IMG/VR virus record: IMGVR_UViG_3300045950_000316
Location: 1-42,882 of that record
Length of the DNA: 42,882 bases
Reading direction: 5' to 3' (one strand)
From: a virus
Shown here: positions 9,320-40,779 of the stretch, piece by piece
Numbering within the stretch: position 1 is the stretch's first letter
Layout: every line of letters begins with the position of its first letter
Made by a program: the position numbers and the translations under genes
Notes under the pieces: model-generated
Seen by the model: only the letters and a program-made list of their open reading frames with translations
Databases searched by the model: none
Told to the model about the DNA's origin: nothing

Positions 9320-9862
9320 ATGCCCGTAAAAGTGACTCACGATACGGAATTGTACCAACTCAACGGAGGTATCCTCTATCTTGCGCTGTGGGATGGATCT
9401 ACTCCACCTGGGGAACTGGATTATTACGATGTGGGCAACTGTCCCGAGTTCTCCTTTTCCGTGGATATCAAGAAACTGGATATCTACAGTTTCCGAGGAA
9501 AGACCAAGGTCAAAGACAAGAGCGTCATCATGGAAACCGGGTACAAGCTGAAGTTCAAGCTGAACGAGCCGTCCCTGGTGAACCTGGCCACGTGGGTTCG
9601 AGGAACCGTGAGCGGCAACACCATTCACGGTTTGCAGGCCTCTCAGAAAGAGTACGCGGTGAAGTTCATCGAAGACAGCTACATCGGAGAGAATAAAGAG
9701 TACTACTTCCGGCGCTGTGACCTTTCCGGATCAGGTGATTTCAACCTGATATCCCTTGAGAAAGAGAAAGAGATGACCTTCGAGGGAGAGGGACTTTCCG
9801 ACGACGCGAATCATCCCACTTCCCCGTTGTTCGATATCATCGTCGTTCCCACATCTTCGTAA
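9320..9862 (+). CDS. major tail tube protein
   Basis: The product has 180 residues with a strong GGAGG 8 bases before the ATG. It is beta-rich with VGNCPEFSFSVDIKKLDIYS and KDKSVIMETGYKLKFKLNEP, features of tail tube proteins that form stacked hexamers: an early strand pair with a hairpin between, a central helix (EPSLVNLATWV) and a C-terminal EMTFEGEGLSDD element. It lies between the tail terminator and the chaperone pair, the standard position. No sheath-like gene precedes it, supporting a non-contractile tail. Confidence 0.8.
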   Translation: MPVKVTHDTELYQLNGGILYLALWDGSTPPGELDYYDVGNCPEFSFSVDIKKLDIYSFRGKTKVKDKSVIMETGYKLKFKLNEPSLVNLATWVRGTVSGNTIHGLQASQKEYAVKFIEDSYIGENKEYYFRRCDLSGSGDFNLISLEKEKEMTFEGEGLSDDANHPTSPLFDIIVVPTSS

Positions 9863-21862: not shown

Positions 21863-22891
21863 GTGGGGATTCCACCAGAATATTGGCGACAAGCCCATGA
21901 GCATGTTTATCAGTGGTGCGGCTCGATGCCTGACGGAAAAACCCCGAATCAAGAAACTCTGGGTAACGTAACTCGATTTGCGGAACCTGGAGAGCCTACG
22001 ACAAGACAGAGTTACAAATACCGTCCCGAGGACTTCCCTGTTGAAGGGACGGAGCGAATCGAGGCGCTACGGCAAACGATGTTGAACCATCCGTTCTTGA
22101 AGGCCTTAAATGAAGGCGCTGGTCCTGCGGGAACGCTAAAGTCGTGGGGTCTGTCCGTGGGGGGCGCTTTGGCGGAAGAGTTGGTGGCCGTGATCGACAC
22201 CGGACGAGGATTAACGTTGTGGGTGTGGAGAAAGACGAATGAAGAACTGACAAACAGCGTTGTCCCCACTAATGAGGGTCAGTATCAACTCTCGATGAAG
22301 AACAATACCGAGCACCCTTTATGGAAAGGTGACCCGCTCGTAACCTCCGATTTTAAGAAGATCGACACTGCGTCGTTTGGGTCCGGGGGGGCTCCCATCG
22401 GCGCTTGTGAAGGGTCGTATAAACATCCGTGGGGGGCCTTTAATTTTGCTGACCTCTACTCCAGAGACGGGACGATCGACTTGGAATGGGGGAACATCGA
22501 CAATTGGGCGTATGAGCCGGGAGATTGTCCTACGTTCAGGCGATATAATACGTGGGGATACTACTGGACCGGGGAGCATGAAGTCGGCGCCGTTCCGGAG
22601 GGCTGGCCCGGAGCTGAGGACTACTCACCCTTGGATAGCTACAATTGGGGGGACACCTGCAATTACTGCCCTCCATCAAAACCTGATTGCAAATATGAGC
22701 TCAGAGACACATGGCCTGCTTGGTATGAGGGCGACAAAACCCCCCGATATATGACGTATGAGGAGCTGACAAAGGAAAATTACGACCTGTTAAAGGTTCA
22801 GTTTGTTGACGGCCTCGTGGATCTCAAGAACAATTTTTGGGCTGTGCTGGTATACCCGGAAGCGGTAACAGGCCCGATACCGGAGTGGTAA
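21863..22891 (+). CDS. virion hypothetical protein, uncertain start codon
   Basis: The product has 342 residues from GTG 21863. The sequence is Trp/Tyr/Pro-rich, with a Cys cluster near residue 270 (CNYCPPSKPDCKYEL). The start is a problem. The only strong SD (AGGAGG, 21838-21843) is 7 bases before an in-frame ATA at 21851 and 9 bases before an out-of-frame ATG at 21853 that stops after 15 codons; it is 19 bases from the GTG. So an ATA start, adding four residues, or a sequence error here is possible. No family is recognised; position suggests a tail-tip component. Confidence 0.55.
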   Translation: MGIPPEYWRQAHEHVYQWCGSMPDGKTPNQETLGNVTRFAEPGEPTTRQSYKYRPEDFPVEGTERIEALRQTMLNHPFLKALNEGAGPAGTLKSWGLSVGGALAEELVAVIDTGRGLTLWVWRKTNEELTNSVVPTNEGQYQLSMKNNTEHPLWKGDPLVTSDFKKIDTASFGSGGAPIGACEGSYKHPWGAFNFADLYSRDGTIDLEWGNIDNWAYEPGDCPTFRRYNTWGYYWTGEHEVGAVPEGWPGAEDYSPLDSYNWGDTCNYCPPSKPDCKYELRDTWPAWYEGDKTPRYMTYEELTKENYDLLKVQFVDGLVDLKNNFWAVLVYPEAVTGPIPEW

Positions 22892-23514: not shown

Positions 23515-24279
23515 ATGGCCGAGACGGTTCAGAATTATCAGTATATACGAAAGAATACGACCGTGTACCATGACCCTTCTCTGGATCTCACCCAGATTCC
23601 GGTCATTCTCTTGGAAGGCCAAAAACTCATCGTCAATTCCATAAGCGGAGTGGACGTGGACTCTCTTGCGTTCGCTTTGACGGGAGTGGAGCTGACCGAG
23701 ACAGGGAGCGAGTCGGGCAAGGTGAACATAGCAGCCTATCCGAATCAGGACGTGAACGTATTGCTATACACCTGCCCTGCGAACAAGTCATTTGTGGGAA
23801 TGCTGACCATGAATCATACCGGGTCCAATGGAGGGTATGCGGACGTCGCGATTTCCGTGAGCACGCCGGGTACGCCGCAAACCGTGAACACAAACGACCT
23901 CCCCTCTTATGAGCTTGTGGCGTACATGCCTTTTGGAGGGAACCAAACACTGACGACTCGATCAATCGTCATGACCGCGGGACAGAAGCTCGTTTGTGTC
24001 GAAGTGGGAAACAACGAAGCGGTTTCATTCGTTATGATGGGGAGGCAATTTGATTCCGAGGGAGCGGAGACCTTAATAAACCAGGGGATTGTGAATCCGC
24101 AACTTGGATACGGGGTCGTTTTGTATGAGTGCCCCACGGGATGCGCGGCAATAGTGGATGTTATCATGACAAACGACGCAAGCGTATCTTACCCGACGGC
24201 AAAGGTATTTCTTCACGGAATGCCGTTGACTACGGACGAAGACGGAGACCAGGAAGCCGGTGGCGGTGGAGGTCAATAA
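23515..24279 (+). CDS. two-repeat virion protein, possible adhesin
   Basis: The product has 254 residues from ATG 23515, which has AAGGAG ahead of it; the longer upstream frame is out of phase with any RBS. The chain appears to be an internal duplication of a beta domain. GQKLIVNSISGVDVDSLAFA and, later, GQKLVCVEVGNNEAVSFVMM start equivalent units; each is followed by NVLLYTCPANKSFVGML or GVVLYECPTGCAAIVDV. The C-terminus is acidic and Gly-rich (DEDGDQEAGGGGGQ). The stop shares a base with the following fibre ATG. A structural or surface-binding role is inferred. Confidence 0.6.
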   Translation: MAETVQNYQYIRKNTTVYHDPSLDLTQIPVILLEGQKLIVNSISGVDVDSLAFALTGVELTETGSESGKVNIAAYPNQDVNVLLYTCPANKSFVGMLTMNHTGSNGGYADVAISVSTPGTPQTVNTNDLPSYELVAYMPFGGNQTLTTRSIVMTAGQKLVCVEVGNNEAVSFVMMGRQFDSEGAETLINQGIVNPQLGYGVVLYECPTGCAAIVDVIMTNDASVSYPTAKVFLHGMPLTTDEDGDQEAGGGGGQ

Positions 24280-26648
24280 TGGCTATTCAGGCGATTTACG
24301 TTAATTCCAACTCATTCCTGGTCTCAGGAGACCATGAGGGGGACTACCGAGCCGGGAGAAAGCTTTTGCTCCTTCAAGGCACGGGAGGACAGGCCATCGT
24401 GAAGGTCGTGAGCGCCCTTGCCGGCGGAGGAAACACGACCGTCACCGTAGCCCCCTCTTCTGTTTTGCCTACGCTCGCGACCGTGAAGCTCGGTCCCACA
24501 TACAATGAAAATGAGGGCATCCACAATCATACCGGCGATAATCAGGCAGGTCTGATTGACGCGGCCACTATGACCACTGAGTTGGTGGACGCTTTGAAGA
24601 CCATTCCTGTGCCGTCAGCCGGAGACCTGTTTAAATTCCTGAGAGTGAGAACCGGAGAAGACGGCTTTGATCTGGTGGACCTGATCGGAACAGCCAATCA
24701 GCTTATTGGAGCCAATGCCGACGCATCGAATCTAGAGACCAAAAGTATTGTGGGAGTCGTGAACCGCACCACAGTCAATCATTCTCAGAATCAGATTCAG
24801 ATTACGACTCCCCAGGATACTCATAGCGGAGCGACTCCTGCCTTTGCAGGGCTCACCTTGTCAGGGCTTACCGGAGTGCTGGTCGGTCACGGAGGGAATC
24901 CGGTTGACGACGTAGCGCCTACGGCGGCCAAACAATTTCTCAGACAGAACGTAGGGAACACCGCTCTTGAGTTCGCCGACTCGATGGAAGAGGACCAGAT
25001 CGACTTTGATTCGGCCAATGGTCACGCTCACACGGGAACTGACTCCAAAGCCGTTGATCATGCGAATCTGCTCAACAAGGGGACAAACACTCACACTGAT
25101 ATAGACTCCCATATCTCAGCGGCCAACCCTCACTCGGGTCACGCTCTGGCGTCAGATCTGGCCGCTCACGTCAATGCCGCAGCCCCTCACAGCGGACACG
25201 CTCTTGATTCCGACCTGGACGCTCACACGGGAAACACCAGCAACCCTCATTCCGTGACCGCTTCTCAGGTCGGCAAAGACACCGCCCAATGGAACGCGGA
25301 GAAATTGCAGAGTAAACCCATTGCGTCAACCGCTCCCACAAACGGGCAGGTCCTGACGTACAACGATTCGACTCAGCAGTACGAGCCCGCGACTCCGCCA
25401 GGGGCTTCCGGCGGTGAAGCCAACACCATGAGCATGCTGGATAACGGGGGTAGTCCGGCAGGAGTGAGCCTGTACGATTCAAAGTCCGGTGTGGATCTGA
25501 GAATCAAAGGGCTGGACGGATCTCAGTTCGAGGCGAGCGGTAGCCATGAGGTGAAGATCAAGGCGTCTGTCTTGGGAGGCGGGGGAGGTCCCGGTCCTGA
25601 TTACACGCCACCGGACATGATTTACAAGGACGCTGATGAGGTTTATCTACCAATAGGTAGATATTTCAAGGGAGGATACCGACACAGAGGGCAATACAAG
25701 GACCTCACGAATCTCGGAACGTATTGGGATATTTCATCACTGACGGCAGTGGACATCGATGGTTCGTACGTCGCTTCGACGACTTCGGGTATTCTTGGAG
25801 GAAAAGTCAATTCGTCCTGGTATTCCGTGTTCTTGATGAATGCAGGGACGTCAGGATGTTTGTTACTATTACCATTCATCCGAGTCAAAGCGATTTCGTA
25901 CGGCAATCCTTCCACAACCATCAATCCGGGGGACCATGCGACAGGGGCATCAAACGAAAACGGCTTTCTGACAACAGATGACGCATGGGACGCCTATCGC
26001 CTCGTGAACCTGACCTACAACGCATATGACGGCGAGGTCTTCACGATTGCGGACTGCGTCTCAGGAACACCGGACCAATTAGTGATCACCGGCGATATTA
26101 CTTCCCAAGTCGCCGTAGGCGGATGGTTGCAACTGGTCCCTCCAAGCGGGACGGCATGTGTGTATCTCGGATTTGTGAAATTCAATAGCGCTGGAGATAT
26201 GCACTTCTTTGTGAAAAACGGTTGGGATTATCGATATGCGACGAGTCCGAAAATAGATGGGAACAAGAGCGCAACAACACTCGGTAATACTGATGTGAGC
26301 CTGGGTGTTCCGCCCGTAGCCAGGGTCGTGAAATTTAAAGTTCATGCGGGTGAGGACAACACAAATTCCACGAGTGGCCATACCGTTCAACTGTTCGATG
26401 GGACGAGTGGAGGAACATTCAATGGACAGACATCCGGAGGTGACGATTCCAGCACGGCGACCGACCTACCCCAATGGGCGGTTCGGTTCAATCCGGAGGG
26501 AAGCGCCACATATCGGGACTGGTGGACGTCCGGTGAATTTGTTATGAGCGTAGTAGGAACTATCAGGAACATCTTTTCCCGACACACCTCCGGGACTCTC
26601 AATCCTCCGGAATACGGATATTTCCGTTTTACAGGCTGCAAAGAATAA
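24279..26648 (+). CDS. tail fibre protein with His-rich repeats
   Basis: The product has 789 residues from ATG 24279, preceded by GGAGGTC. The longer open frame upstream overlaps the previous gene in a different frame and is not supported. Domains: an N-terminal attachment module shared with the 22893 protein (1-about 125); a linker; His-rich repeats (about 245-330: GHAHTGTDS, DIDSHISAANPHSGHAL, NPHSVTASQVG), a pattern of slender trimeric fibres that hold metal ions; an NGQVLTYNDSTQQYE element; a Gly/Pro-rich hinge; and a large beta-rich C-terminal domain (about 450-789) likely to bind the receptor. No chaperone or auto-cleavage domain was recognised. Confidence 0.8.
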   Translation: MAIQAIYVNSNSFLVSGDHEGDYRAGRKLLLLQGTGGQAIVKVVSALAGGGNTTVTVAPSSVLPTLATVKLGPTYNENEGIHNHTGDNQAGLIDAATMTTELVDALKTIPVPSAGDLFKFLRVRTGEDGFDLVDLIGTANQLIGANADASNLETKSIVGVVNRTTVNHSQNQIQITTPQDTHSGATPAFAGLTLSGLTGVLVGHGGNPVDDVAPTAAKQFLRQNVGNTALEFADSMEEDQIDFDSANGHAHTGTDSKAVDHANLLNKGTNTHTDIDSHISAANPHSGHALASDLAAHVNAAAPHSGHALDSDLDAHTGNTSNPHSVTASQVGKDTAQWNAEKLQSKPIASTAPTNGQVLTYNDSTQQYEPATPPGASGGEANTMSMLDNGGSPAGVSLYDSKSGVDLRIKGLDGSQFEASGSHEVKIKASVLGGGGGPGPDYTPPDMIYKDADEVYLPIGRYFKGGYRHRGQYKDLTNLGTYWDISSLTAVDIDGSYVASTTSGILGGKVNSSWYSVFLMNAGTSGCLLLLPFIRVKAISYGNPSTTINPGDHATGASNENGFLTTDDAWDAYRLVNLTYNAYDGEVFTIADCVSGTPDQLVITGDITSQVAVGGWLQLVPPSGTACVYLGFVKFNSAGDMHFFVKNGWDYRYATSPKIDGNKSATTLGNTDVSLGVPPVARVVKFKVHAGEDNTNSTSGHTVQLFDGTSGGTFNGQTSGGDDSSTATDLPQWAVRFNPEGSATYRDWWTSGEFVMSVVGTIRNIFSRHTSGTLNPPEYGYFRFTGCKE
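25030..25250 (+). repeat. His-rich repeat block within the fibre gene
   Basis: Within the fibre gene the coding sequence repeats a unit that reads NPHSGHALxSDLxAH or a close variant two to three times, with flanking HAHTGT and HTDIDSH elements. At DNA level CCTCAC followed by GG(T/A)CACGCTCT recurs near 25128-25146 and 25184-25203. Such repeats can shorten or lengthen by recombination and so change fibre length. Confidence 0.5.
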
Positions 26649-26664
26649 TCCTCCCAAGCGCCAA

Positions 26665-26690
26665 CGCCACTGTCAGGCGGCCTCATTTTT
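26665..26690 (+). terminator. weak possible terminator after the fibre gene
   Basis: CGCC (26665-26668) pairs with GGCG (26676-26679) and TTTTT follows at 26686-26690, 6 bases after the stem. The stem is short, so this is only a weak candidate. It lies in the 88-base gap between the fibre gene and the next small gene. Confidence 0.25.
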
Positions 26691-26736
26691 CCAAGAAGAC
26701 ACTAACTAATTAGACCCTCCAGGGAGTAATTCCGCC

Positions 26737-27126
26737 ATGCCGACATACAAGAACAACGGCTCGAAAATCGCGTGGATCGGTTCGGTAACCGTACGACCTG
26801 ACGAAACAAGAGAAACCGCTGTGTACGCAGATCCCGGACACACGGACCTGGAACTCGTCAGTCATAGCCCACGATCAAACTATCCCGTCAAACTCTTCGG
26901 AGACGTCCTTCCCTCCGGGGCCATTTCAGATCTCGCTCGGTACGGCGTGCTCCAGATCTACAACAAGACCGGAGAGGACATTACCGTCACGTGGAACAAT
27001 GATACCACGGATCAACAGGTCTTCCCGAACGGATGGTGGGGAGAAATAGACCTGAACGGCGATTATGACTCGATCGCAGTGACGGGTAATGGATCGGGCA
27101 ATGTGTACCTGTGGGCCTACCGATAA
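26737..27126 (+). CDS. small beta-rich virion hypothetical protein
   Basis: The product has 129 residues; GGGAG lies about 12 bases before the ATG, a slightly long spacing. It appears to be two small beta domains: one around VTVRPDETRETAVYADP and one around LQIYNKTGEDITVTWNNDTT, both typical of fibre-accessory or decoration proteins. A Trp-rich turn (NGWWGEIDL) sits near residue 100. It has no signal peptide. It lies between the main fibre and two more adhesin-like genes. Confidence 0.6.
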   Translation: MPTYKNNGSKIAWIGSVTVRPDETRETAVYADPGHTDLELVSHSPRSNYPVKLFGDVLPSGAISDLARYGVLQIYNKTGEDITVTWNNDTTDQQVFPNGWWGEIDLNGDYDSIAVTGNGSGNVYLWAYR

Positions 27127-27170
27127 GCCCTTCCTTTCAAATTGACACTTCTCGATAAGGATGCTTGATA

Positions 27171-27950
27171 ATGGGACGATTCAGAACACTCGCTCCGTCC
27201 GGCTCAGGGACTTCTTCCATCACTTCCGATCTGCAGGCCGGTCTTGACGCCGCTTCTCCCGGAATAACCGCAGAAAATCCACCGCTGACTCTCGGAAACC
27301 TTATTATTGTCGCGGATAACACGGAGCGTCCAGATCCGGGGATTCCCGGCAGGCTCTGCTACTCATTCGCGGAACGCATTCTCTATTACGATACGGGCTC
27401 CGTTTGGTTTGGTGGAATATCTCCATTCGGAGTGTATTTTTCAGTGGCTTCGTTGGAGGCAAATGCCGACCCGCTTGAGACGACACTTGCTTTCTGCGCT
27501 GAGACTCAAACGCTCTATCTGTTTTTGGAGGCGAGCCCCCTGACGGTGGACCACCTTGCGGTCCTTTCCGTGAACGGTTATCAGGATTCCAGGTGGTTTG
27601 CGGCGTTCGGAGCGTACGGGCAGCATTGCTTCATCGGGGATTCAGAGGATATTCCCTTCTCTGGTAATATCCCGGGCCGAATCCTACTTGATCCTGTCGC
27701 TTCTCGATTTGCCATCAGTGATGGGTTGGGGAATTGGGTAGGGCCTTTTGCGCCGGAGATCGATATGTCGGATCTGCTCTTAATGCTCCAACCCTTCGTA
27801 TTCAACGCCACAACCGAGCCATCCTCTCCGGAGCCGGATAAAGCAAGTCTCTATGTCACCGCCTCTGGAGAATCCCCGAACCGGCAGGTCGCTTTGAAAT
27901 GCAAATTCGAGGATGGGACCGAAGTGACCCTTGCAAGTGTGTTGGTATAA
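27171..27950 (+). CDS. fibre-associated protein with short beta motifs
   Basis: The product has 259 residues from ATG 27171; a TTG at 27165 is nearer to the AAGG at 27157 spacing-wise, so the first two residues are uncertain. Recurrent motifs IPGRLCYSFAERILYYDTGS and IPGRILLDPVASRFAISDG, each followed by a W, resemble short beta-hairpin units of phage tail fibres. The C-terminus repeats the theme (DKASLYVTASGE). The next gene carries a similar unit. A receptor-facing accessory is the best guess. Confidence 0.6.
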   Translation: MGRFRTLAPSGSGTSSITSDLQAGLDAASPGITAENPPLTLGNLIIVADNTERPDPGIPGRLCYSFAERILYYDTGSVWFGGISPFGVYFSVASLEANADPLETTLAFCAETQTLYLFLEASPLTVDHLAVLSVNGYQDSRWFAAFGAYGQHCFIGDSEDIPFSGNIPGRILLDPVASRFAISDGLGNWVGPFAPEIDMSDLLLMLQPFVFNATTEPSSPEPDKASLYVTASGESPNRQVALKCKFEDGTEVTLASVLV

Positions 27951-27961
27951 GGAGAACCGAG

Positions 27962-28756
27962 ATGGCCGTTACCTACTACGGTGGAAACAACCTCACATGC
28001 CTGAGTTCCGACACGAAACCTCTGAATATCCCTGATGGAGCCCGACTCATCGAAATTGACACAGCCTTGGAATTCGTGAAACAGAGCGGAGCTTGGGCAC
28101 AGGTGGCAGGAGGATCAGGTGGCGTTACTATCGATGTAATGGCGAATCGCCCGGCAGCGAGTGCGAGTCAGGGTAAATACTACTATGTCACTGACACGAA
28201 CCCGAAGCAAATGTTCTTCTCGGACGGAACTGACTGGGTTCCGGTAACGACGAATCCATTGATGCAGTTCTGGGATGGAAGCACGAACACGAGCACGATT
28301 CCCTGTACGGGAAATATCAGCGCTAACGGAACGCCTCCGAATCCGAATACTGCCGCATGGTGGGTGAATTCCGCATATAACGCCAATGCTTATCAATTCT
28401 TCGATGGGACCCCATCATGGGTATCGCCGGGAGCGCCGGGAAATGTGGGATACTACTTTGGAACGTCCGCAACCAAGAAGGTAAACAAATACCGCATGTA
28501 TGTGGGAGCCCAATATCCCATATCTTGGACGGTAGACTACCCGGCCCAAGGGGTCACAAATCCGGATGTAGCCAATAACGCTCATTGGACGCCGGTACAT
28601 CAAATAGCGCAGTATTCTCAGTCCGAAGGGTGGTCCAATTGGTTCACGTTTGTGACGTACGGCGGGTGCTCAGCAGTCAGGATACGATTCATTACCGCAA
28701 TATCAGGCGGACCGTCTCTCCAACAGATCCAGTTTGTCGAGGACACCAGGTCGTAG
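27962..28756 (+). CDS. adhesin-like protein with F5/8 type C-like (discoidin) domain
   Basis: The product has 264 residues from ATG 27962, with AAGGAG ahead; the upstream frame from 27899 overlaps the previous gene. The N-terminal part carries the same hairpin unit as the preceding gene (KYYYVTDTNPKQMFFSDGTDW). From about residue 125 the order YQFFDGTPSWVS, VGYYFGTSATKKVNKYRMYV, SEGWSNWFTF, CSAVRIRFI and a final QIQF strand fits a galactose-binding-like beta-sandwich of the F5/8 type C family. Such domains bind sugars or lipids, so host-surface binding is likely. Confidence 0.65.
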   Translation: MAVTYYGGNNLTCLSSDTKPLNIPDGARLIEIDTALEFVKQSGAWAQVAGGSGGVTIDVMANRPAASASQGKYYYVTDTNPKQMFFSDGTDWVPVTTNPLMQFWDGSTNTSTIPCTGNISANGTPPNPNTAAWWVNSAYNANAYQFFDGTPSWVSPGAPGNVGYYFGTSATKKVNKYRMYVGAQYPISWTVDYPAQGVTNPDVANNAHWTPVHQIAQYSQSEGWSNWFTFVTYGGCSAVRIRFITAISGGPSLQQIQFVEDTRS

Positions 28757-29463: not shown

Positions 29464-30762
29464 ATGTGGAGTCCTGTCTTGAGAATCGCTATCCTCACCA
29501 ACTTCAAAGAATTCCATCCGGGCTTTTCTCTCACCGGCATAGTCAGAGATCAGATCACGACGCTTCAGCGCTATGGCCATGATGTGACGCTGTTCGTGGC
29601 GGAAGAATACTCAGAGACGAACTGGCCCGCTGACCTCCATTGCCGTATCGAGAGAGCGATCCCGCGACCGGTCCACACAAAGCCGAAAGACATTCCCACG
29701 TCCATGAAAGAGCTCGCCAAGGACCACAAACGAGTCTCCAAGTCCTTTGCCAAAATCCTTGAAAAGAAACTCCAGGAGTTTGAGATCGTCATCACTCACG
29801 ACTTCATGCTCCCCAATTGGCACTGGCTCCCTTATGCGGTAGGTCTTCGCATGGCGAGCGAGTCCACGAGACATCTGCGCTTCCTGCACTGGATACACTC
29901 CGTTCCCTGGATGGGCGGCAAGTGGTGGAGCATTCGTCACTTGGGACGCAACCACAGAATCATATACCCGAACGAAACTGATCGGCTCAGGGTAGCGGGC
30001 ATATATGGAGGAAAGCCTGACTCAGTGCGGGTAATCCCTCATATAAAGGACTTGAGAACCTTTTGCGATTTCCATCCTGATACCTGTGAGTTCATTGACC
30101 GGTATCCCGGAGTCATGAACGCCTCCATCGTGCAAGTGTATCCCGCGAGCAGTGATCGTTTGACCGCGAAGAGACTCAAAGAGCTCATCTGGATCTTCAA
30201 GGAGTTCAAGCAGCGGAGTTTTTCCGTATGCCTCGTTGTCGCAAACCAAATGGTCAATCCCACTCGGCAGAGAGAAGACATCGAGCATTACCGGAACGTC
30301 GCTCGGAGAAACGGCCTCAGTGAGCAAGAAGTTATTTTCACCAGTGAATTCAAAGTCCCAACGTATGAGTCGGGTCTACCCAAACGGATTCTCAGGGAAC
30401 TTATGCAATGCATGAACCTGTTCGTCTTCCCTTCCCGCGAGGAGTCCTTCGGCCTTGTTCTTCCCGAAGCGTCACTCTCGTCAGGATGCCTCACCATCTG
30501 TAACGGCTCACTGGATATGCTCAGGGAGATTGCAGGCCTCAACGGTCTGTTCTTTGAGTTCGGGAGCTATTCCAGAAAGTTCAAACCAGGCAATGAGAGG
30601 GAGTGCTACCAGGCGATGGCGTCGGTGATTCTCGCGAGAATGAAGGAAGACGACGGGCTCCAGGCAAGGACTCACTTTCGACGGAAACTCAACGGGGATT
30701 ACCTGTACACCCATTACTATCAGCCGATTCTGGAAGAAGCCCGTCAATCATGGACCATATAG
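29464..30762 (+). CDS. glycosyltransferase, family 4-like (GT-B fold)
   Basis: The product has 432 residues from ATG 29464. TTG 29479 has a better SD (GGAG, 8-base spacing) and would begin MRIAILTNF, so the true start may be there. The N-terminal Rossmann half opens RIAILTNFKEFHPGFSLTG, the glycan-acceptor side. The C-terminal half carries SREESFGLVLPEA: Glu327-x7-Glu335, the GT4 nucleotide-sugar binding signature, followed by LSSGCLTICN. Enzymes of this family transfer a sugar from NDP-sugar to an acceptor, retaining the anomeric configuration. It is the first gene of a four-gene glycosylation cassette; the target may be virion protein, DNA or the host envelope. Confidence 0.85.
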   Translation: MWSPVLRIAILTNFKEFHPGFSLTGIVRDQITTLQRYGHDVTLFVAEEYSETNWPADLHCRIERAIPRPVHTKPKDIPTSMKELAKDHKRVSKSFAKILEKKLQEFEIVITHDFMLPNWHWLPYAVGLRMASESTRHLRFLHWIHSVPWMGGKWWSIRHLGRNHRIIYPNETDRLRVAGIYGGKPDSVRVIPHIKDLRTFCDFHPDTCEFIDRYPGVMNASIVQVYPASSDRLTAKRLKELIWIFKEFKQRSFSVCLVVANQMVNPTRQREDIEHYRNVARRNGLSEQEVIFTSEFKVPTYESGLPKRILRELMQCMNLFVFPSREESFGLVLPEASLSSGCLTICNGSLDMLREIAGLNGLFFEFGSYSRKFKPGNERECYQAMASVILARMKEDDGLQARTHFRRKLNGDYLYTHYYQPILEEARQSWTI

Positions 30763-31163
30763 CGTTTCAGCAATACCAAGCCCTTTTCGAGAGCAGGGTC
30801 ATCGCTCAAGGCGTTGAGAAGGGCCTTCTCGGCCAAATTGAGCGTGTATCCACTAAACCTAGGGCCCTGGCCCGAGGAAGCTTCGGCAAGGTAATCGGGA
30901 CCGTTCTCGACGCGAGAGGAGCGCTCTGCCTGGACTACTACGGGCTCCACAAGCTCTCCAGAGGGTTGATGGAGCTCATCGGTCACATCAGGCTTGAGGA
31001 AAAGGGAACTCAGATCAGATACATCGAATGTCCGGTCGTTCACTTATCATCAGTCAGATTCGAGGACATTTCCCGACTCGCTCCTGACCTCATGGAAGGC
31101 TTCCCTCACTTCAAGAAGCGTGTTCTCGATTTACGAGGATTCAACCATTCCTACCGGCCGTAG
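30750..31163 (+). CDS. hypothetical protein in glycosylation cassette
   Basis: The product has 137 residues from ATG 30750, overlapping the GT4 gene by 13 bases. It begins with a helix (DHIAFQQYQALFESRVIAQG). A basic middle (STKPRALARGSFGKVIG) leads to a mixed region with KGTQIRYIECPVVHLSS. No family is recognised. Its place between two glycosyltransferases suggests a pathway role, but no enzyme motif was found. Confidence 0.6.
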   Translation: MDHIAFQQYQALFESRVIAQGVEKGLLGQIERVSTKPRALARGSFGKVIGTVLDARGALCLDYYGLHKLSRGLMELIGHIRLEEKGTQIRYIECPVVHLSSVRFEDISRLAPDLMEGFPHFKKRVLDLRGFNHSYRP

Positions 31164-31175
31164 GCGACAAACAAG

Positions 31176-31880
31176 ATGAGTAAAGACACTCCAATCATCA
31201 TCAACAATCGGGATCGAGTCACGTCGCTATGCCGGCTGATTTCCTGGCTTCTGGAGGCCGGTCATACCAATATCACGGTTCTCGACAATGACAGTTCCTA
31301 TCCACCATTGCTGGAGTACTATGAAACCCTCGACGGCCTCGTCACCGTCGCGCCTCTCGCGAAGAATCTCGGTTCCAAAGCAGTCTGGGTATGGAGTGAG
31401 TCAACGAAGTGTGTCAAGTCGCCCTTCGTGTACACGGACAGCGATATCGTTCCTACTGAGGAATGTCCCAAGGACCTTATCGACTTCCTGATCCGAGTCA
31501 GCGAGAGGTTCGGCAGCCCCAACAAGGTGGGAGTGGGACTGAAAATCGACGATCTCCCCGACTGCTATGCGAAGAAGGACTGGGTTTGCCAATGGGAGAG
31601 TCAGTACTGGGACAAGAAAGTGGGAGAGATGGACGGAGTCCCGATTTACAGCGCCTTTGTGGACACTACCTTTGCTCTGTATCCGGAATTCAAGCTGTTT
31701 TCCTTGCATGGCATACGAACAGGTCCTCCGTACACCGCTCGTCATGTCCCCTGGTACGTCGATAGCGCGAATCCGTCTGAAGAAGATCTCTACTATGAGC
31801 GACACGCGAGCCGGAGTTTTCATAATTGGGGGATCAATGAATGCCACTCAAAGGCGGTCCGGAACAAATGCGAGCGCTAA
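31176..31880 (+). CDS. GT-A-fold glycosyltransferase-like protein
   Basis: The product has 234 residues. The opening PIIINNRDRVTSLCRLISWL resembles the N-terminal strand and helix of family-2-like GT-A enzymes, and YTDSDIVP (Asp88-x-Asp90) is the DxD motif that binds the metal and NDP-sugar. The C-terminal half lacks the full acceptor domain of GT2, and 234 residues is short. The RBS is weak. The end overlaps the next gene by 40 bases (or 13, if that gene starts at 31868). Confidence 0.75.
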   Translation: MSKDTPIIINNRDRVTSLCRLISWLLEAGHTNITVLDNDSSYPPLLEYYETLDGLVTVAPLAKNLGSKAVWVWSESTKCVKSPFVYTDSDIVPTEECPKDLIDFLIRVSERFGSPNKVGVGLKIDDLPDCYAKKDWVCQWESQYWDKKVGEMDGVPIYSAFVDTTFALYPEFKLFSLHGIRTGPPYTARHVPWYVDSANPSEEDLYYERHASRSFHNWGINECHSKAVRNKCER

Positions 31881-33157
31881 GGCACTATGAAGTTCCCGGA
31901 GCGGTTGATATGGCCTGCTACGCTCCGTTCTATCAGGACATAACCGGACGGATCGCGTCCGAGAACGCTTCGACGGGCAAACCTACGGTTATCGTTGAGG
32001 CGGGCGTCAGGCATGGATGCAGCGCGAGGATATTTCTGGAAGCGCTGAAGGACTGCGATACGTGGGACCTATTCCTCATTGACCCGGAACCGAAAGAGGA
32101 AGCCCTAGTTCTTACCGCAAATCCTCACGTCAAGCTCATGGCGGCAAAAGCGGAGTCCGTCGCGTCAGGGTTCGCTGACGGATCGGTTGACCTTCTCCAT
32201 ATTGACGCGGATATCAACGGTGATCACGATTACCATCTTGCGCTTCTGATTCTCACGGCATTCTGGAGAAAGCTCAAGCCTCGAGGAGAAGTCATTTTCC
32301 ATGACTGTACGCCTCGATTCCCCGGGATAGTGAGGCTCGTGAAAGAGCTGGAGGACTCGGGGCAATGGGACGTTTCGTACGGTAAGCCTGATCCGGCGAG
32401 TCCCATAAGCGCTCCCGCGCACACAAAGCGGAGGTTCCTGACCAAGGGTGTTTCAGACATTACCGTAGTGATTCCCGTGATCCAGGACAAGTTTCTCGGT
32501 TCACTGCTTAAGGATATCCATCTGAACACAGTCAAACCGTCCGAGATCATCGTCATCGACAACGGGAACGGAGTGTGTGAGAAGACCTGCTTGGGATTTT
32601 CCCAGGCGTTACCGATCAGATACCTGAAGCGGGAAACCAACATAGGAGTAAACGCCTCCTGGAATCTCGGCATTGAGGAGTCGCGGACTGAATTGGTGTC
32701 AGTGCTGAATGACGACCTGGTCCTTCCCGGGAATTTCTTTTCTCTCGTTCAAGAGACCTTCGATACCGTATCCAATGCCGGTATGGTCATTCCTTCCACG
32801 ATAGGCCCTCCGGTAAAAGGCGTCGGCGTTCTGCAATGGACCGTGGGAACTCCGCACGACCTCGTGAACCATGACGATGCGCCCGAGGTTTCTCCCTACA
32901 CGGTCCGGGAGGGATGGGCGTTCACAGTAAAGAAGAGCTTCGTGGAGCCGATACCGTCAACCATGTTCACGTTCTGCGGTGACGACTGGTTGTTTCATCA
33001 GGTCCGGAAGAAGGGCTATTGGACGCTCAAGATCACGAACAATCACGTGTTTCACTACGTGGGAATAAGCCTGAACCATGCTCAGCGACAAGTCCTGAAT
33101 CTACCGACCGTGGATGAGGATCGGAAGGCATGGAACGCCGTGAGTCAACGCTCATGA
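31841..33157 (+). CDS. fusion of SAM methyltransferase and GT2 glycosyltransferase
   Basis: The product has 438 residues. ATG 31841 follows GGGGGAT; ATG 31868 (after AAAGGCGG) is an alternative start. Residues about 45-200 form a class I SAM methyltransferase: VEAGVRHGCSA at about 52-62 (glycine-rich loop), LFLIDPEP, and LLHIDADINGDHDYH, as in the Methyltransf_24-like group. Residues about 206-438 form a GT-A glycosyltransferase of family 2: DITVVIPVIQ, EIIVIDNGNG, then SVLNDDLVLP with Asp291-Asp292 in place of DxD. One chain would thus methylate and glycosylate, perhaps capping a glycan. It ends in an ATGA overlap with a small gene. Confidence 0.8.
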   Translation: MPLKGGPEQMRALRHYEVPGAVDMACYAPFYQDITGRIASENASTGKPTVIVEAGVRHGCSARIFLEALKDCDTWDLFLIDPEPKEEALVLTANPHVKLMAAKAESVASGFADGSVDLLHIDADINGDHDYHLALLILTAFWRKLKPRGEVIFHDCTPRFPGIVRLVKELEDSGQWDVSYGKPDPASPISAPAHTKRRFLTKGVSDITVVIPVIQDKFLGSLLKDIHLNTVKPSEIIVIDNGNGVCEKTCLGFSQALPIRYLKRETNIGVNASWNLGIEESRTELVSVLNDDLVLPGNFFSLVQETFDTVSNAGMVIPSTIGPPVKGVGVLQWTVGTPHDLVNHDDAPEVSPYTVREGWAFTVKKSFVEPIPSTMFTFCGDDWLFHQVRKKGYWTLKITNNHVFHYVGISLNHAQRQVLNLPTVDEDRKAWNAVSQRS

Positions 33158-33363
33158 GAGAAAAGGAATTTCTGATAGTGGATGGAATCCTCATGGTGAG
33201 GTCCGTTCAGAGGGTTTCCGACGGGTACGACGTGGATGGCCGCTCACAGGGAAGTTGCGTGGCAGTGACGATGCGACCCGCAACCCTTGATGAGGTATCG
33301 GAATACCGGAGCCGACAATTGAATAAAAACGAATTGGAGGGCATCAATGGCGACGATACTTGA
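33154..33363 (+). CDS. small hypothetical protein
   Basis: The product has 69 residues. ATG 33154 overlaps the previous stop by ATGA; an in-frame ATG at 33130 would overlap further and is less likely. It appears to be a small beta domain (KEFLIVDGILMVRSVQRVSDG) with a charged C-terminus that lies over the start region of the holin-like gene, whose SD (GGAGGG) lies in its last codons. No family is recognised. Confidence 0.6.
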   Translation: MREKEFLIVDGILMVRSVQRVSDGYDVDGRSQGSCVAVTMRPATLDEVSEYRSRQLNKNELEGINGDDT

Positions 33364-33706
33364 ATTGATGAAGACGAAATGCGGTGAAATCGCACAGTAC
33401 GCGAAGCAGGGATGGGCTATCTGGCTTATGGACCTCCTTGTCCTGCTCACAGTCCTCGTAGGTCTATATGGTCTGTATCAGCAGCTCTTCGCATGGTGGA
33501 CTCCCGATAAGGGAATGGTAAGCGACTACTTGTCCGTAAAGGGAACGTCCGTGCTTCTCGGCGGGACCGCTCTGTGCGTCCTGGTATGGCTGTTTGATCT
33601 CCTTACTCCTGGATCGTGGATACGCAAGTCCGCTGAAAATCCGTACAGCGCGGCCATTGTTCTCTCAGCGCTCATCCTCGGCCTTTCCAACATCCTGGCG
33701 CACTAA
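33347..33706 (+). CDS. putative holin (three membrane helices)
   Basis: The product has 119 residues with a strong GGAGGG before the ATG. Hydrophobic helices run at about 27-50 (WLMDLLVLLTVLVGLYGLYQ), 67-87 (TSVLLGGTALCVLVWLF) and 101-118 (YSAAIVLSALILGLSNIL). Short polar loops join them, and a charged N-terminus precedes. A three-helix protein directly ahead of an endolysin, stop touching start (TAATGATG), is the standard position of a class I holin, which permeabilises or depolarises the inner membrane to set lysis time. Because the endolysin has a Sec signal, this may instead act as a pinholin-like trigger. Holins share no sequence motif, so context decides. Confidence 0.65.
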   Translation: MATILELMKTKCGEIAQYAKQGWAIWLMDLLVLLTVLVGLYGLYQQLFAWWTPDKGMVSDYLSVKGTSVLLGGTALCVLVWLFDLLTPGSWIRKSAENPYSAAIVLSALILGLSNILAH

Positions 33707-34227
33707 TGATGAAGAAGGTACTGACTATCGTCTTTCTGCTCCTGATCCCGATCCTGTCTCATGCCTTGGATGAGCAGCGTAAGCGGACGTTCATGCGCCA
33801 GTTGGAATTCGCGATCATCAAGAACCCCGAGTACATGTGGGGAGGCGTGAGCCTTGACGAAGGAGCGGATTGCTCGGGGATTCTCTTCGCTATCGCCAAG
33901 AACTCCGGACTCCCGGTTCTGAGAACCACAGCGTACCAGATGGCAAGGGGTCGCGACGGTTGGAAATCCATTGTCATGGACTTGGAATACCGAGAGACGG
34001 AAGACGGAGAAGCGGAAGATACGTACGGTGAAGGGGGAGATCTCATCTGGTGGACCTTCTCTCCTGACAGACCCGACGGTCATGTGGGCGTGAGATACGA
34101 CAAACGAGTCTTCGCTCACGCCAGTAGTAAGTACGGATTCATCAAGGCGAAACTCAAGAGCCCCTTGGGTAAGGCCATCAGGAAAGCCCGACGACTCACC
34201 TTTGACGATAAGGAGAAGAAGCCATGA
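33706..34227 (+). CDS. NlpC/P60-type endolysin with Sec signal peptide
   Basis: The product has 173 residues. Residues 1-20 form a clear signal peptide (MMKK, then a Leu/Ile/Val core and HA before the likely cleavage). The mature part follows the NlpC/P60 papain-like fold: GADCSGIL with catalytic Cys56, GHVGV with His126 and a further polar residue, probably His138 in FAHASS. Such enzymes cut peptide stems in peptidoglycan (typically gamma-D-Glu-diaminopimelate bonds). Export by Sec means it need not await a large holin hole. It sits between a holin-like gene and spanin-like genes, and overlaps the latter by ATGA. Confidence 0.8.
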   Translation: MMKKVLTIVFLLLIPILSHALDEQRKRTFMRQLEFAIIKNPEYMWGGVSLDEGADCSGILFAIAKNSGLPVLRTTAYQMARGRDGWKSIVMDLEYRETEDGEAEDTYGEGGDLIWWTFSPDRPDGHVGVRYDKRVFAHASSKYGFIKAKLKSPLGKAIRKARRLTFDDKEKKP

Positions 34228-34535
34228 TAGGTGACCTCGTCGGACTCTACTTCGCCAAATTCAAGTACATGGCTATCATCGTCATCCTTGTCGCTGTGTT
34301 CGGAGGCTACCTCTCGTTGAAGAGCAGGATCGCGTATCTCGAATCCAGGAACGTCGAGCTTCAGAGGCAATTGGATACGTGCCTGAGCAATCAAAAGAAT
34401 TGTGACGACTCAAACGAGTTCCTTCAGCAGGCTATCAAGAACATTACCGAATACTGCCACAAGCCGATTGAAACGCATGAAGGAGCGTTGACTCCCGACG
34501 AATTGAAACTATGGGACAAAAGGCCTTCAAAATAG
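34224..34535 (+). CDS. i-spanin-like (Rz-like) protein
   Basis: The product has 103 residues. An N-terminal membrane helix (YMAIIVILVAVFGGYLSL) is followed by a coiled-coil stretch (KSRIAYLESRNVELQRQL) and a Cys-containing periplasmic part. This layout is that of an inner-membrane spanin subunit, which works with an outer-membrane lipoprotein to fuse the membranes in the last step of lysis. It starts within the endolysin stop (ATGA) and overlaps the lipoprotein gene by 25 bases in another frame, as Rz and Rz1 genes do. Confidence 0.7.
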   Translation: MIGDLVGLYFAKFKYMAIIVILVAVFGGYLSLKSRIAYLESRNVELQRQLDTCLSNQKNCDDSNEFLQQAIKNITEYCHKPIETHEGALTPDELKLWDKRPSK

Positions 34536-34918
34536 CTATAATCTGCCTTCTCGCTTCTCTTCTCCTTGCTTGCGGAGCGACTCACAAGGAAGTCATCCGA
34601 GGCGCTAGGGTCCCTGAGCTCAAGCTCCCCGACAAGATCGACATCCTTGAGCCCGATACGAGAAAGGAGCCGGGAACTACGTACATCGATCAACCGAAGC
34701 TCGTGAAACCGGGAGAGAACATCAAAGGCGGCAAGGAAGGCAATGTCTGTCTGCAACCAAAGGACTGGCGTACCCTGAAATACGGAATCGTCGAGTACTA
34801 CCGGTGGATGCTGACTATGAAGAAGAACGTAGAGGATCACAATAGGATCTTCGATGAGAAAAAGCAGTCCGAGTCAGGGATTCGTGAGTTCCTGAAAGAC
34901 TGGACCTGGAAGTTCTGA
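34511..34918 (+). CDS. lipoprotein, o-spanin-like (Rz1-like)
   Basis: The product has 135 residues. The N-terminus has a lipoprotein signal with lipobox LLAC (Cys21), followed by a Gly at +2, which permits outer-membrane sorting. A Pro/Lys-rich middle (VPELKLPDKIDILEPD) suits a periplasm-crossing peptide. It is long for an o-spanin, and its C-terminal half (YYRWMLTMKKNVEDHNRIF) is helical. It starts inside the i-spanin-like gene. The TGA overlaps the next ATG (TGATG). Lipoprotein assignment is firm; the o-spanin role rests on context. Confidence 0.65.
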   Translation: MGQKAFKIAIICLLASLLLACGATHKEVIRGARVPELKLPDKIDILEPDTRKEPGTTYIDQPKLVKPGENIKGGKEGNVCLQPKDWRTLKYGIVEYYRWMLTMKKNVEDHNRIFDEKKQSESGIREFLKDWTWKF

Positions 34919-37431: not shown

Positions 37432-38229
37432 ATGCTCAGGAATTTATTGTCCGGAGCGTGGTCGGAGGTATCCTCTGACTTTGCTCAGAAGGCGCTCAAG
37501 GCTATAGACGCGAAAGACACTTCCAAACTGACTTCTCTTCTTGAGGAGCTTCCTGATTTGGGCGCTGAGCTCAGAAAGGCTATTTCCAAAGGAACTGACG
37601 CGATAGTCGCTACAATCCAGACAAAGGCCAACGCTTTCTGGGAGCTCCACGGCAAGGAGGTTACCGGCGCTTCGGACCTGAGCAAGATCCCCAAGGATTA
37701 TCAACAGACTATCCGGAGAATGACCGCGAATCAGGTGAAGCTCTTTGCCGAGAAGAACCCTGAGAGAATCCTTCATCCAGAGATAGCCCGTCAGATCGAA
37801 TACCTGAAAGAAGCGGAGCTCACCAGATCCATTGATGTGTCAAGGCTCAGCGACCGGATGGAACGTATCCTTTCTCAGGACTACTACTGGGAGAACCTAT
37901 CTGACGTCCAGGTCTCCCGGCAATGGCACGCGAACGGAGTAATCCTTGGTAAGAAGAATGGGGTCGCGAAAGGACAGATCTCGGGTCCGACAAATTACCC
38001 TGTCTGTCCGGTTTGCATGATTCTAGTCGGTTTGGAATTCAGCATCGATAGTATGTCCGACAAGATCGACAAGTTCCTGGGCCTGACGGACATCGATGAA
38101 ATCAAATCGCAATGGTCGTTTCCCAGGATCGCGGACGTTGACAACATGTCTCGGGCGGAATTGGCCGCCAAAGGCTACCTGCCTCCATTTCATAGTAATT
38201 GTCGTCACGGAGTTACGTGGTTGACATAG
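37432..38229 (+). CDS. MuF-like minor head (morphogenesis) protein
   Basis: The product has 265 residues from ATG 37432; starts at 37336 or 37354 would overlap the portal by 62 or 44 bases and lack an RBS. The N-terminal part is helical. The C-terminal region carries VSRQWHANGVILGKKNG, NYPVCPVCMIL and PPFHSNCRHGVTWLT, a Cys/His pattern typical of the MuF (SPP1 gp7) domain. MuF proteins enter the procapsid with the portal and influence DNA ejection; some carry toxin domains, but none is visible here. Following directly after the portal is the normal order. Confidence 0.75.
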   Translation: MLRNLLSGAWSEVSSDFAQKALKAIDAKDTSKLTSLLEELPDLGAELRKAISKGTDAIVATIQTKANAFWELHGKEVTGASDLSKIPKDYQQTIRRMTANQVKLFAEKNPERILHPEIARQIEYLKEAELTRSIDVSRLSDRMERILSQDYYWENLSDVQVSRQWHANGVILGKKNGVAKGQISGPTNYPVCPVCMILVGLEFSIDSMSDKIDKFLGLTDIDEIKSQWSFPRIADVDNMSRAELAAKGYLPPFHSNCRHGVTWLT

Positions 38230-38333
38230 CAGGCAGGTACACGGAACCTAGCGAGCTCGATTTCCATACGAGTTTTCTCGATCCGCATTTCAACCCCAAT
38301 TCCTGTCTTTCCCGAAAACTCGGGAGAGACGTC

Positions 38334-39104
38334 ATGAACACAATCTTCCTCAAATCCTCAGACAAGATGGATGAACTGCCCGACGAGTCCATCCATCTTG
38401 TCGTAACCAGCCCTCCATACAATGTGAATAAAGACTACGAGCGGGACCAGGCCTTCGACGACTGGCAGAAACTCATGCGAGCCGTGTTCACGGAAGTCCA
38501 CCGGGTGCTGATCCCTGGAGGCCGAGTCTGCATTGTCATCGCGAATACCGGCCGTAACCCGTACCGACCGCTTCACCTCTATCTTACCCAGATTATGCTG
38601 GATATAGGCTATCTGATGCGGGGCGAGATCATTTGGGACAAAGGAGCCGGCGTCGGTTCATCCACAGCCTGGGGTAGCTGGATGAAGGCCACTAACCCTT
38701 GTTTGAGGGACGTTCACGAGTACATCCTGATTTTCAGTAAGGAATCCATGAGGAGAGACCTGACTGGAGCGTCCACGATTTCCAGGGAAGAGTTCCTTCA
38801 GGCTACTCTGTCGGTATGGCGAATCCCTACCGTTTCAGCAAAGAAGGTCGGTCATCCCTGTCCGTTTCCTTTGGAAATCCCACGGCGCTTGATCAACTTG
38901 TACTCATTCCAAGGCGATACGATCCTGGATCCCTTCATGGGAAGTGGCCAGACAGCGCTTGCCGCTTTGGAAACCGGTAGGCAGTACATTGGGTATGAAC
39001 TCGTCCCAGAATACACGCGTCTCGCCCATGAGCGACTCTCAAACGTTACGTCTCGTAGGGATGCGCTCCACGCGATGGTGACCCAAGGATACGCCTCACC
39101 TTAA
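38334..39104 (+). CDS. DNA methyltransferase, amino-MTase (SPPY type)
   Basis: The product has 256 residues from ATG 38334, with GGGAGAG ahead; the frame extends to 38199 but that part is not conserved-looking. The catalytic motif TSPPYN (25-30) precedes the SAM-binding motif DPFMGSGQTALAA (199-211), the beta-class order of N4-cytosine/N6-adenine methyltransferases. SPPY favours N4-cytosine, though SPPY enzymes that act on adenine exist. No endonuclease partner is adjacent, so this is an orphan enzyme probably protecting phage DNA from host restriction. It follows the MuF gene. Confidence 0.88.
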   Translation: MNTIFLKSSDKMDELPDESIHLVVTSPPYNVNKDYERDQAFDDWQKLMRAVFTEVHRVLIPGGRVCIVIANTGRNPYRPLHLYLTQIMLDIGYLMRGEIIWDKGAGVGSSTAWGSWMKATNPCLRDVHEYILIFSKESMRRDLTGASTISREEFLQATLSVWRIPTVSAKKVGHPCPFPLEIPRRLINLYSFQGDTILDPFMGSGQTALAALETGRQYIGYELVPEYTRLAHERLSNVTSRRDALHAMVTQGYASP

Positions 39105-39768: not shown

Positions 39769-39945
39769 AGGAGAAGCCTGCGCCTGCCGTCAATCTCAGC
39801 CAACAATTTTGTATGACGCGGCGTCAGGATATCCAACGTGGAAAGCTGTGTTGACTTTGCGCCACATGCGTCTCATGGACGAGATTTGACGCGATGCGTT
39901 CAGGGACACTCAGTGGGTTATCAGGTGAGGGGAAGATCCACAAAT

Positions 39946-40779
39946 ATGAAAAAGAGCAAGTCACGCGCAGCTACTGAAGTCCATCCTGATCAGATCAGAA
40001 CGATAGAGATCAGTCACATCAGGACACACTCCACGTTCGTGGAATTGCTTCCCGTTGACGAGGACCTCCTGGCAAAGATGATCGAGGTCATGCGCGCTGA
40101 GGGCTTTTACCAATCAGAGCCTGTTGTCCTGGCGAAGTGGAAGGGACTGGAAGAGCCCGTACTCATAGACGGCCACATGCGTATTCGGGCCGCTTCTGAA
40201 GCCGGAATTACCCACGTTCCCTGCGTGACTGTAGAATTCTCCAATGAAATGGAGGCGTTGCAACATGCGGTGAACCTCCAGGCTGTGCGCAGGAGAACCA
40301 CGGATGGGGCTTTTTATCGGCTCTGCTGCCAGTACGACGCGCTGATGGACTGTGGCGGCGACCGACGGAGTGAAGGGGCAAAATCAAAAATGCAACGTTG
40401 CAAACTTGATCGGGGATTCTCCGCTTCGGCCCGAAGGACCGCGCAGCTCATAGGCTGCCACTACCGAAAGGTGGATAAAATCCGGAAGATCCGCAGGGAC
40501 GGTTGGCCTGAAATCCAGGACGCGGTACGAAATGACCAATGCTCCATCAACAGAGCGTACAGGTTGATTCGCGACATGGAGATCGGCGAAGACGACGCGA
40601 AAGGCAAACCGAAGCTGACGAACGGGCCGATCAAGGCAGTGAAGTCCGTGCTGAGCGAGGACAACTTCGTTGGCTTGGAAGGGATGGGCGATGACCTCGG
40701 CTCGCTGCTCAATTTGGCTGTTGAGCAGTTCATTGGCGGGCTTCGGGATAAGGAGAGGGCTGAAGCGCGGAAGGATTGA
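39946..40779 (+). CDS. ParB/Srx-like domain protein
   Basis: The product has 277 residues from ATG 39946 with GAGGGGAAG ahead; the in-frame extension to 39838 lacks an RBS. After a basic start, residues about 20-110 fit the ParB N-terminal-like fold: RTIEISHIRTHSTF, EGFYQSEPVVLAKW, and LIDGHMRIRAASEAG (73-87), the box with the GHxR nucleotide-binding signature. A helical region with RTAQLIGCHYRKVDKIRKI (a possible helix-turn-helix) follows at about 165-190. ParB-like proteins in phages serve partition, regulation or nuclease roles. There is no ParA gene beside it, so plasmid-style partition is unlikely. Confidence 0.75.
   Translation: MKKSKSRAATEVHPDQIRTIEISHIRTHSTFVELLPVDEDLLAKMIEVMRAEGFYQSEPVVLAKWKGLEEPVLIDGHMRIRAASEAGITHVPCVTVEFSNEMEALQHAVNLQAVRRRTTDGAFYRLCCQYDALMDCGGDRRSEGAKSKMQRCKLDRGFSASARRTAQLIGCHYRKVDKIRKIRRDGWPEIQDAVRNDQCSINRAYRLIRDMEIGEDDAKGKPKLTNGPIKAVKSVLSEDNFVGLEGMGDDLGSLLNLAVEQFIGGLRDKERAEARKD

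Follow-up and report, generated by a model that had tools for sequence, protein, structure and literature searches.

Why does a phage carry a set of glycan-building enzymes among its late genes, and which molecules do these enzymes modify? We address this question for a viral DNA of 42,882 bases, the IMG/VR virus record IMGVR_UViG_3300045950_000316, which was analyzed over its whole length and is referred to here as the window. An earlier interpretation made from the letters of this DNA (the “sequence-only reading”) had placed a four-gene glycosylation cassette at positions 29464 to 33157, and our searches confirm it there: a GT4-type glycosyltransferase, a 137-residue protein (g2), a short glycosyltransferase of the GT-A fold (GTA), and a fusion of a methyltransferase with a GT2 domain (MT-GT2 fusion) are encoded on one strand. 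We judge the chances to be about even that these genes form a late, cytoplasmic glycan-assembly cassette that uses host donors to build a methylated glycan on the phage’s own virion proteins, most likely those of the tail.

The first gene (29464..30762, plus strand) encodes a GT4-type glycosyltransferase of 432 residues, which matches PF13439 with 28.6 bits (cut-off, 28.5) and the glycosyltransferase family phrog_2170 with E 4e-11, in addition to matches below the cut-off to PF13692 and PF00534. It carries an E-x7-E motif (E327/E335), which we take to be the GT4, or GT-B, motif; a comparison with the PDB, by sequence and by alignment, gave no match. The second gene, g2 (30750..31163, plus strand, with its best start at the ATG at 30750), overlaps the GT4 end by 13 nt and matched no Pfam or PHROG family and no phage protein, its NCBIfam match being at chance level (E 0.24); its single-sequence AlphaFold model (predicted local distance difference test [pLDDT] of 34) is uninformative as to fold. 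GTA follows at 31176..31880 (plus strand, 234 residues) and is overlapped by 40 nt by the 438-residue fusion (31841..33157, plus strand), in which a Methyltransf_24 domain (residues ~52-156; PF13578, 8e-17) and a GT2 domain (from residue ~207; PF00535, 7e-9) both score above the cut-off in a single frame. Since the cassette genes overlap or lie 12 nt apart, their co-expression is likely, and to this extent the proposed joint transcription is implied by the packing. A search for promoter and terminator signals around the cassette found none above shuffled sequences, which neither supports nor denies co-expression.

A second phage contig shows which of these genes are kept together. A search of viral contigs with a degenerate GTA motif led to six contigs, one of which, G001 (IMGVR_UViG_3300005077_000014, 85,374 bases; also present in our data as loci L094 and L176), is colinear with the window from the protease to the portal. 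G001 encodes, in the same order, homologues of GT4 (42.6%), GTA (60.6%), the MT-GT2 fusion (50.2%), and a small gene (55% over 49 residues), and the block is then followed by the same pre-portal gene and the portal itself. Both GT4 glutamates, E327 and E335, are conserved in G001, and its fusion aligns as the same methyltransferase-GT2 arrangement. As such, the expectation that the cassette occurs as a block in related phages is borne out by GT4, GTA, and the fusion, and because these three recur in the same order and g2 has one relative elsewhere, the cassette genes are not chance open reading frames. The membership of the unit has to be redrawn, however: G001 lacks g2, and the conserved unit includes a fifth small gene (33154..33363, plus strand, 69 residues from this start), which overlaps the fusion stop in an ATGA and follows the fusion in G001 too. 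In addition, G001 has an extra glycosyltransferase-like gene ahead of GT4, which we read as CgeB-like; its sole family match, to RXYLT1_C, is below the cut-off. G001 also has a separate Methyltransf_24-like gene at 50833-51438 (L009:15833-16438), which is not part of a fusion and shares 36% identity with the N-terminal domain of the MT-GT2 fusion.

To place the conservation of the block among the other shared proteins, we ranked 25 reciprocal-best pairs of the window and G001 by global alignment, one of which (31567-31890) is a shadow frame within GTA. The four block genes rank 1, 2, 3, and 5 (44.2-60.3%; Mann-Whitney p 0.0013), whereas the capsid and major tail proteins reach 27.8% each. This pattern fits both a stronger constraint on the block and a more recent exchange of it. 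The order relative to the lysis-like genes also differs, as these precede the cassette in G001 and follow it in the window; because the homology between the lysis-like genes of the two phages (including the NlpC-like proteins) is weak, a movement of the cassette past them is only suggestive.

GTA is the enzyme for which family searches provide the least, since no Pfam, PHROG, or NCBIfam model matched it and a single-sequence search of the PDB gave no significant match. Its AlphaFold (AF2) model (pLDDT 92.1; predicted template-modelling score 0.89) adopts a GT-A fold, and its DxD aspartates D88 and D90, together with H190, are invariant across an 82-row alignment of GTA relatives. Its matches among solved structures are GT-A enzymes: TarP, EXTL2, GalNAc-transferases, and B4GALNT1, and its profile reaches dolichol-phosphate mannose synthase as well (E 5e-4). 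The GT-A fold is shared with B4GALNT1 over 191 residues (Z 13.8, root-mean-square deviation 4.1) and with TarP over 167 residues (Z 11.8, root-mean-square deviation 3.1); the template-modelling (TM) score by query length of the solved GT-A structures is ~0.5 or less (Foldseek), and the identity of TarP/TarS, polypeptide GalNAc-transferases, and B4GALNT1 to GTA (8-15%) is too low for substrate inference. The best viral fold matches, with a TM score by query length of 0.75, are the giant-virus proteins A0A7D3QTS0 of Fadolivirus (26% identity, E 9e-18) and E3T524 of Cafeteria roenbergensis virus (22%, E 1e-16), which, unlike the phage that encodes GTA, come from viruses of eukaryotes.

Relatives of GTA are common. 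One is encoded in 100 of 116 candidate stretches of viral contigs and in 173 of 195 of the genome collection, and the relatives kept for analysis (80 from each set) form 57 viral and 71 bacterial clusters at 85% identity. One viral contig carries two tandem copies (G034:C1:25862-26518 and 26537-27208, locus L137). In the tree built from the 82-row alignment, the window groups with G001 in one clade (100/99), and the phage label needs six changes.

Well-supported branches force at least two of these switches between bacterial and phage labels, which would fit genes that were cargo (a moron) taken from a bacterial polysaccharide locus, acting on host glycans and serving neither the virion nor exclusion, or losing their function. 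The variability of g2, of the extra glycosyltransferase-like gene of G001, and of the order relative to the lysis-like genes points the same way. We nevertheless consider such cargo quite unlikely, given that the reading frames and catalytic motifs are intact, that the block is unusually conserved relative to the structural genes, and that its GC content, overall and at third codon positions, matches that of the remaining phage genes.

In favor of a role in the virion, the reading that we prefer, late and tail-proximal glycan enzymes also occur in other uncultured phages. A scan with the GT4 proteins of the window and G001 recovered nine loci: G001 itself (L176), L174, L175, and L177-L181 (the latter seven at 39-48%), and L182 (25%); the genes of L174-L182 were read from open reading frame starts, tblastn, and our own hidden Markov models (HMMs), not from family libraries. 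GT4 stands behind tail genes in four of these contigs. In L174 and L181, genes with tail-protein matches lie shortly upstream of it; in L179, GT4 comes after two large proteins (one with a weak structural match) and is itself followed by a GT2 relative, by genes resembling acetyltransferases and methyltransferases, and by an endolysin whose best phage match is at 48%; and in G001, fibre and lysis-like genes precede GT4. The fusion also has GT2 relatives, which immediately follow GT4 in L174 and L175 and come one gene further on in L179. Those of L174 and L179 (216 and 253 residues) stand without a methyltransferase fusion; the GT2 open frame of L175 is longer than these, and its GT4 begins 131 bases from the end of the locus. 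Thus, GT4 and GT2 look like a portable core, around which GTA, the methyltransferase fusion, g2, the acetyltransferase-like gene, and extra glycosyltransferase genes vary. Beyond these loci, an alignment of the MT-GT2 fusions used as a query against viral contigs recovered G001 alone; the fusion, GTA, the capsid protein, and GT4, each scanned singly against viral contigs, returned nothing; and in 50,697 phage records, neither a megablast of 22.9 kb nor tblastn of the cassette proteins gave a match at 1e-5, and at E 10 there were only fragments.

The same enzymes could act on other substrates, and the genes that accompany them help to discriminate among these. No transmembrane segment was found in any cassette enzyme, and neither the window nor G001 contains the flippase family GtrA (PF04138), the one flippase family searched for; both records may be incomplete. 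Gtr-type serotype conversion combines a GtrA flippase with a membrane-bound GtrB/Gtr, and we found neither the former in these two records nor the latter among the cassette enzymes. PF01370 and PF00483 are likewise absent from both records, in agreement with the earlier statement that the phage brings no genes for sugar-nucleotide synthesis. Because the enzymes have no transmembrane segment and neither GtrA nor sugar-nucleotide genes were found with them, the data fit enzymes that modify phage proteins in the cytoplasm and draw on host donors. O-antigen conversion and DNA glycosylation are disfavored because no membrane partner, GtrA, or thymidylate-synthase-type hydroxymethylase (PF00303) was found, the last in a search of the window and G001 whose control was positive in 9 of 14 genomes, within records that may be incomplete. 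A search for Tet/JBP (PF12851) gave no match either, and it is uninformative since its control never matched.

The negative search for a hydroxymethylase bears on the possibility that the substrate of the cassette is a hypermodified base in the phage DNA, which we regard as very unlikely. In favor of this possibility, some phage glycosyltransferases do glycosylate DNA bases (PMC12619734); a DNA methyltransferase gene lies in the window downstream of the portal gene (38199-39104); and in three contigs, the neighbours of the GT4 relative are recombination-like or DNA-methylase-like genes.

A serious rival is modification of the host envelope, given that enzymes of these families belong to polysaccharide loci. 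GT4 and GT2 are typical of polysaccharide assembly in general, and the bacterial relatives of GTA occur in O-antigen- or exopolysaccharide-type loci. The cassette would then alter the host lipopolysaccharide or capsule, so that the receptor is masked, re-adsorption to debris is prevented, and other phages are excluded; its position beside fibre genes would suit a coupling to receptor choice. We hold this to be somewhat unlikely, since the search for GtrA (the one flippase family covered) was negative, the cassette contains no integral-membrane glycosyltransferase, its late position leaves little time for surface remodelling, and GTA relatives lie within head-tail gene clusters in one phage clade.

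The context of these relatives was tallied over 150 genes near viral GTA genes and 150 genes more than 6 kb away, after 53 of 203 near and 16 of 166 far genes had been dropped at random and with G001 (L094) excluded from both sets; PHROG and Pfam tallies cover the 25 commonest families. Near viral GTA genes, GT2 (24/150), epimerase (11/150), and Methyltransf_24 (8/150) are found, and the leading PHROGs there are likewise glycosyltransferases, epimerase, and methyltransferases. Among the distant genes, by contrast, the 25 commonest PHROGs comprise terminases, portals, tail, nuclease, and other families, with no glycosyltransferase or epimerase. Of the 57 viral cluster representatives, 50 were examined for structural genes, the seven shortest contigs being omitted. 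At E <= 0.001, a portal was found in 17, an HK97 capsid in 9, and a tape measure in 11 contigs (16, 6, and 8, respectively, above the curated cut-off), and 20 contigs had at least one of these. GTA is on the same strand as the structural genes in all 20, a count made without a control set. Eight contigs have a portal as well as a tape measure, and GTA falls between the two in head-to-tail order in five of these, between tail and portal in one (G001), and beyond the tape measure in two; in G048, it is ~80 kb from the capsid gene. Known structural-protein seeds matched 18 of the 57 cluster representatives, with L122 and L132 reached solely via a family of unknown function.

Several observations weigh against virion decoration. 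A statistical case for GTA in head-tail clusters was rejected, as the portal-tape measure count is near the expectation from interval length and therefore describes the arrangement without proving it. The bacterial GTA neighbours are of the polysaccharide type (GT2 in 31 of 131, an ABC transporter in 9, Wzt_C in 4, and EpsG in 3). In L177 and L178, GT4 and methyltransferase-like genes adjoin replication- or recombination-like genes (the methyltransferase HMM match in L177 is weak, E 0.002), and in L180, GT4 is near DNA-methylase-like genes and, ~4.2 kb after it, the one relative of g2 that we found (L180:6791-7264, 33.6% over 128 residues, E 1e-18); no recognizable virion gene adjoins GT4 in these three contigs. 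The terminal fibre genes differ between the window and G001 although the cassette is kept, so the cassette does not track those particular fibres. Taken together, the proposed glycosylation of virion proteins is partly supported, by the soluble enzymes and by the late, tail-proximal glycan enzymes of other uncultured phages; the link to particular fibres is not supported.

Virion proteins, most simply those of the tail, are still the likeliest acceptor. The Trp/Ser-rich fibres named in the sequence-only reading do not qualify as described, because the Trp-rich proteins are upstream tail-region proteins and the main fibre (24129) has 18% Ser plus Thr and 1.3% Trp. No Ser/Thr-rich acceptor tail stands out among the window proteins. 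Possible acceptors include the major tail protein (9320..9862, plus strand; phrog_807, with an Ig-like domain), by analogy with mycobacteriophages as described in PMC12619734, and the tail fibre and neighbouring genes (24129..28756, plus strand; weak tail-fibre PHROG matches for 24129-26645). Outside the cassette, the best-conserved protein that the window and G001 have in common (46%) is a 129-residue protein beside the fibres (26737-27126), which may be a shared acceptor or a structural part. Two tail-region proteins are Trp-rich: 19952-20509 (6.5% Trp), which ends in a closely spaced Trp cluster, and 21863-22891 (5.0% Trp). Elsewhere, L177:12171-12923 encodes a 250-residue protein with a Trp/Ser/Thr-rich N-terminal part in the GT4/methyltransferase neighbourhood, which could be an acceptor.

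If virion proteins are indeed the target, one glycosyltransferase would add the first sugar, from a host nucleotide-sugar, to a side chain of such a protein. The remaining ones among GT4 (retaining by its family), GTA, and the GT2 domain would then extend the glycan, as their folds and motifs suggest, and the methyltransferase domain may O-methylate a sugar, thereby capping or diversifying the chain.

There is precedent for glycans on phage particles. PMC12619734 and PMC11256854 present them as experimentally shown for mycobacteriophages (Che8, cluster F1), where phage glycosyltransferases are accompanied by glycans on capsid and tail-tube subunits; PMC10955285 and PMC12691614 also cover this glycosylation, citing Freeman 2023. 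The cassette of the window resembles these systems in that the glycosyltransferases are phage-encoded, and would use different enzymes: tblastn of GT4, GTA, and the fusion gave no match at E 1e-5 among the 50,697 phage records (the presence of Che8 among these is unchecked). It further differs from Che8 in its methyltransferase-GT2 fusion, in its position between tail and lysis genes, and in an acceptor that is only proposed. Other roles put forward for phage glycosyltransferases are DNA protection and superinfection exclusion (PMC10202952). In the titles and abstract openings of the open-access papers searched on phage virion glycosylation and glycosyltransferase-methyltransferase fusions, we found none describing this set.

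A broader reading, which we put forward tentatively as a possibility, is that of a portable tail-decoration module: a GT4-GT2 pair with variable enzymes (GTA, methyltransferase, acetyltransferase-like) would insert where tail and lysis genes meet in phages that are otherwise unrelated, and would coat their tail proteins with methyl-capped glycans. As part of the same tentative reading, GTA may represent a glycosyltransferase family, unmatched by Pfam, PHROG, and NCBIfam, that is common to phages, bacterial polysaccharide loci, and giant viruses. If so, this would give a functional setting to an unmodelled family that is common in viral contigs. Should methylated glycans be present on tail proteins in other phages, this would matter for receptor binding, recognition by antibodies, and the stability of the particle, and a defined three-enzyme block would offer a genetic handle on tail glycosylation.

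In the rest of the window, family searches and gene order indicate a siphovirus-like late region. A DnaB-like helicase (1058) is followed by the maturation protease (4300), the major capsid protein (6250) with connectors downstream of it, the tape measure (10595), and tail genes up to 24.3 kb. The proposed position of the cassette between tail and lysis genes holds, with the fibre genes before it and lysis-like genes after it (33347..34918, plus strand), namely, a three-transmembrane protein, an NlpC/P60 protein (PF00877 match, with a hydrophobic segment at its N-terminus), a transmembrane protein, and a lipoprotein-like protein; we infer a spanin-like character for genes of this region. The portal gene (35673) follows, and a ParB-like gene (39838-40779) lies downstream of it. 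Elsewhere, the open reading frames of the high-GC phage contigs L006/L113 (IMGVR_UViG_3300021388_000021) and L003/L140 suggest several glycosyltransferase, methyltransferase, and epimerase-like genes between capsid-like and tail genes.

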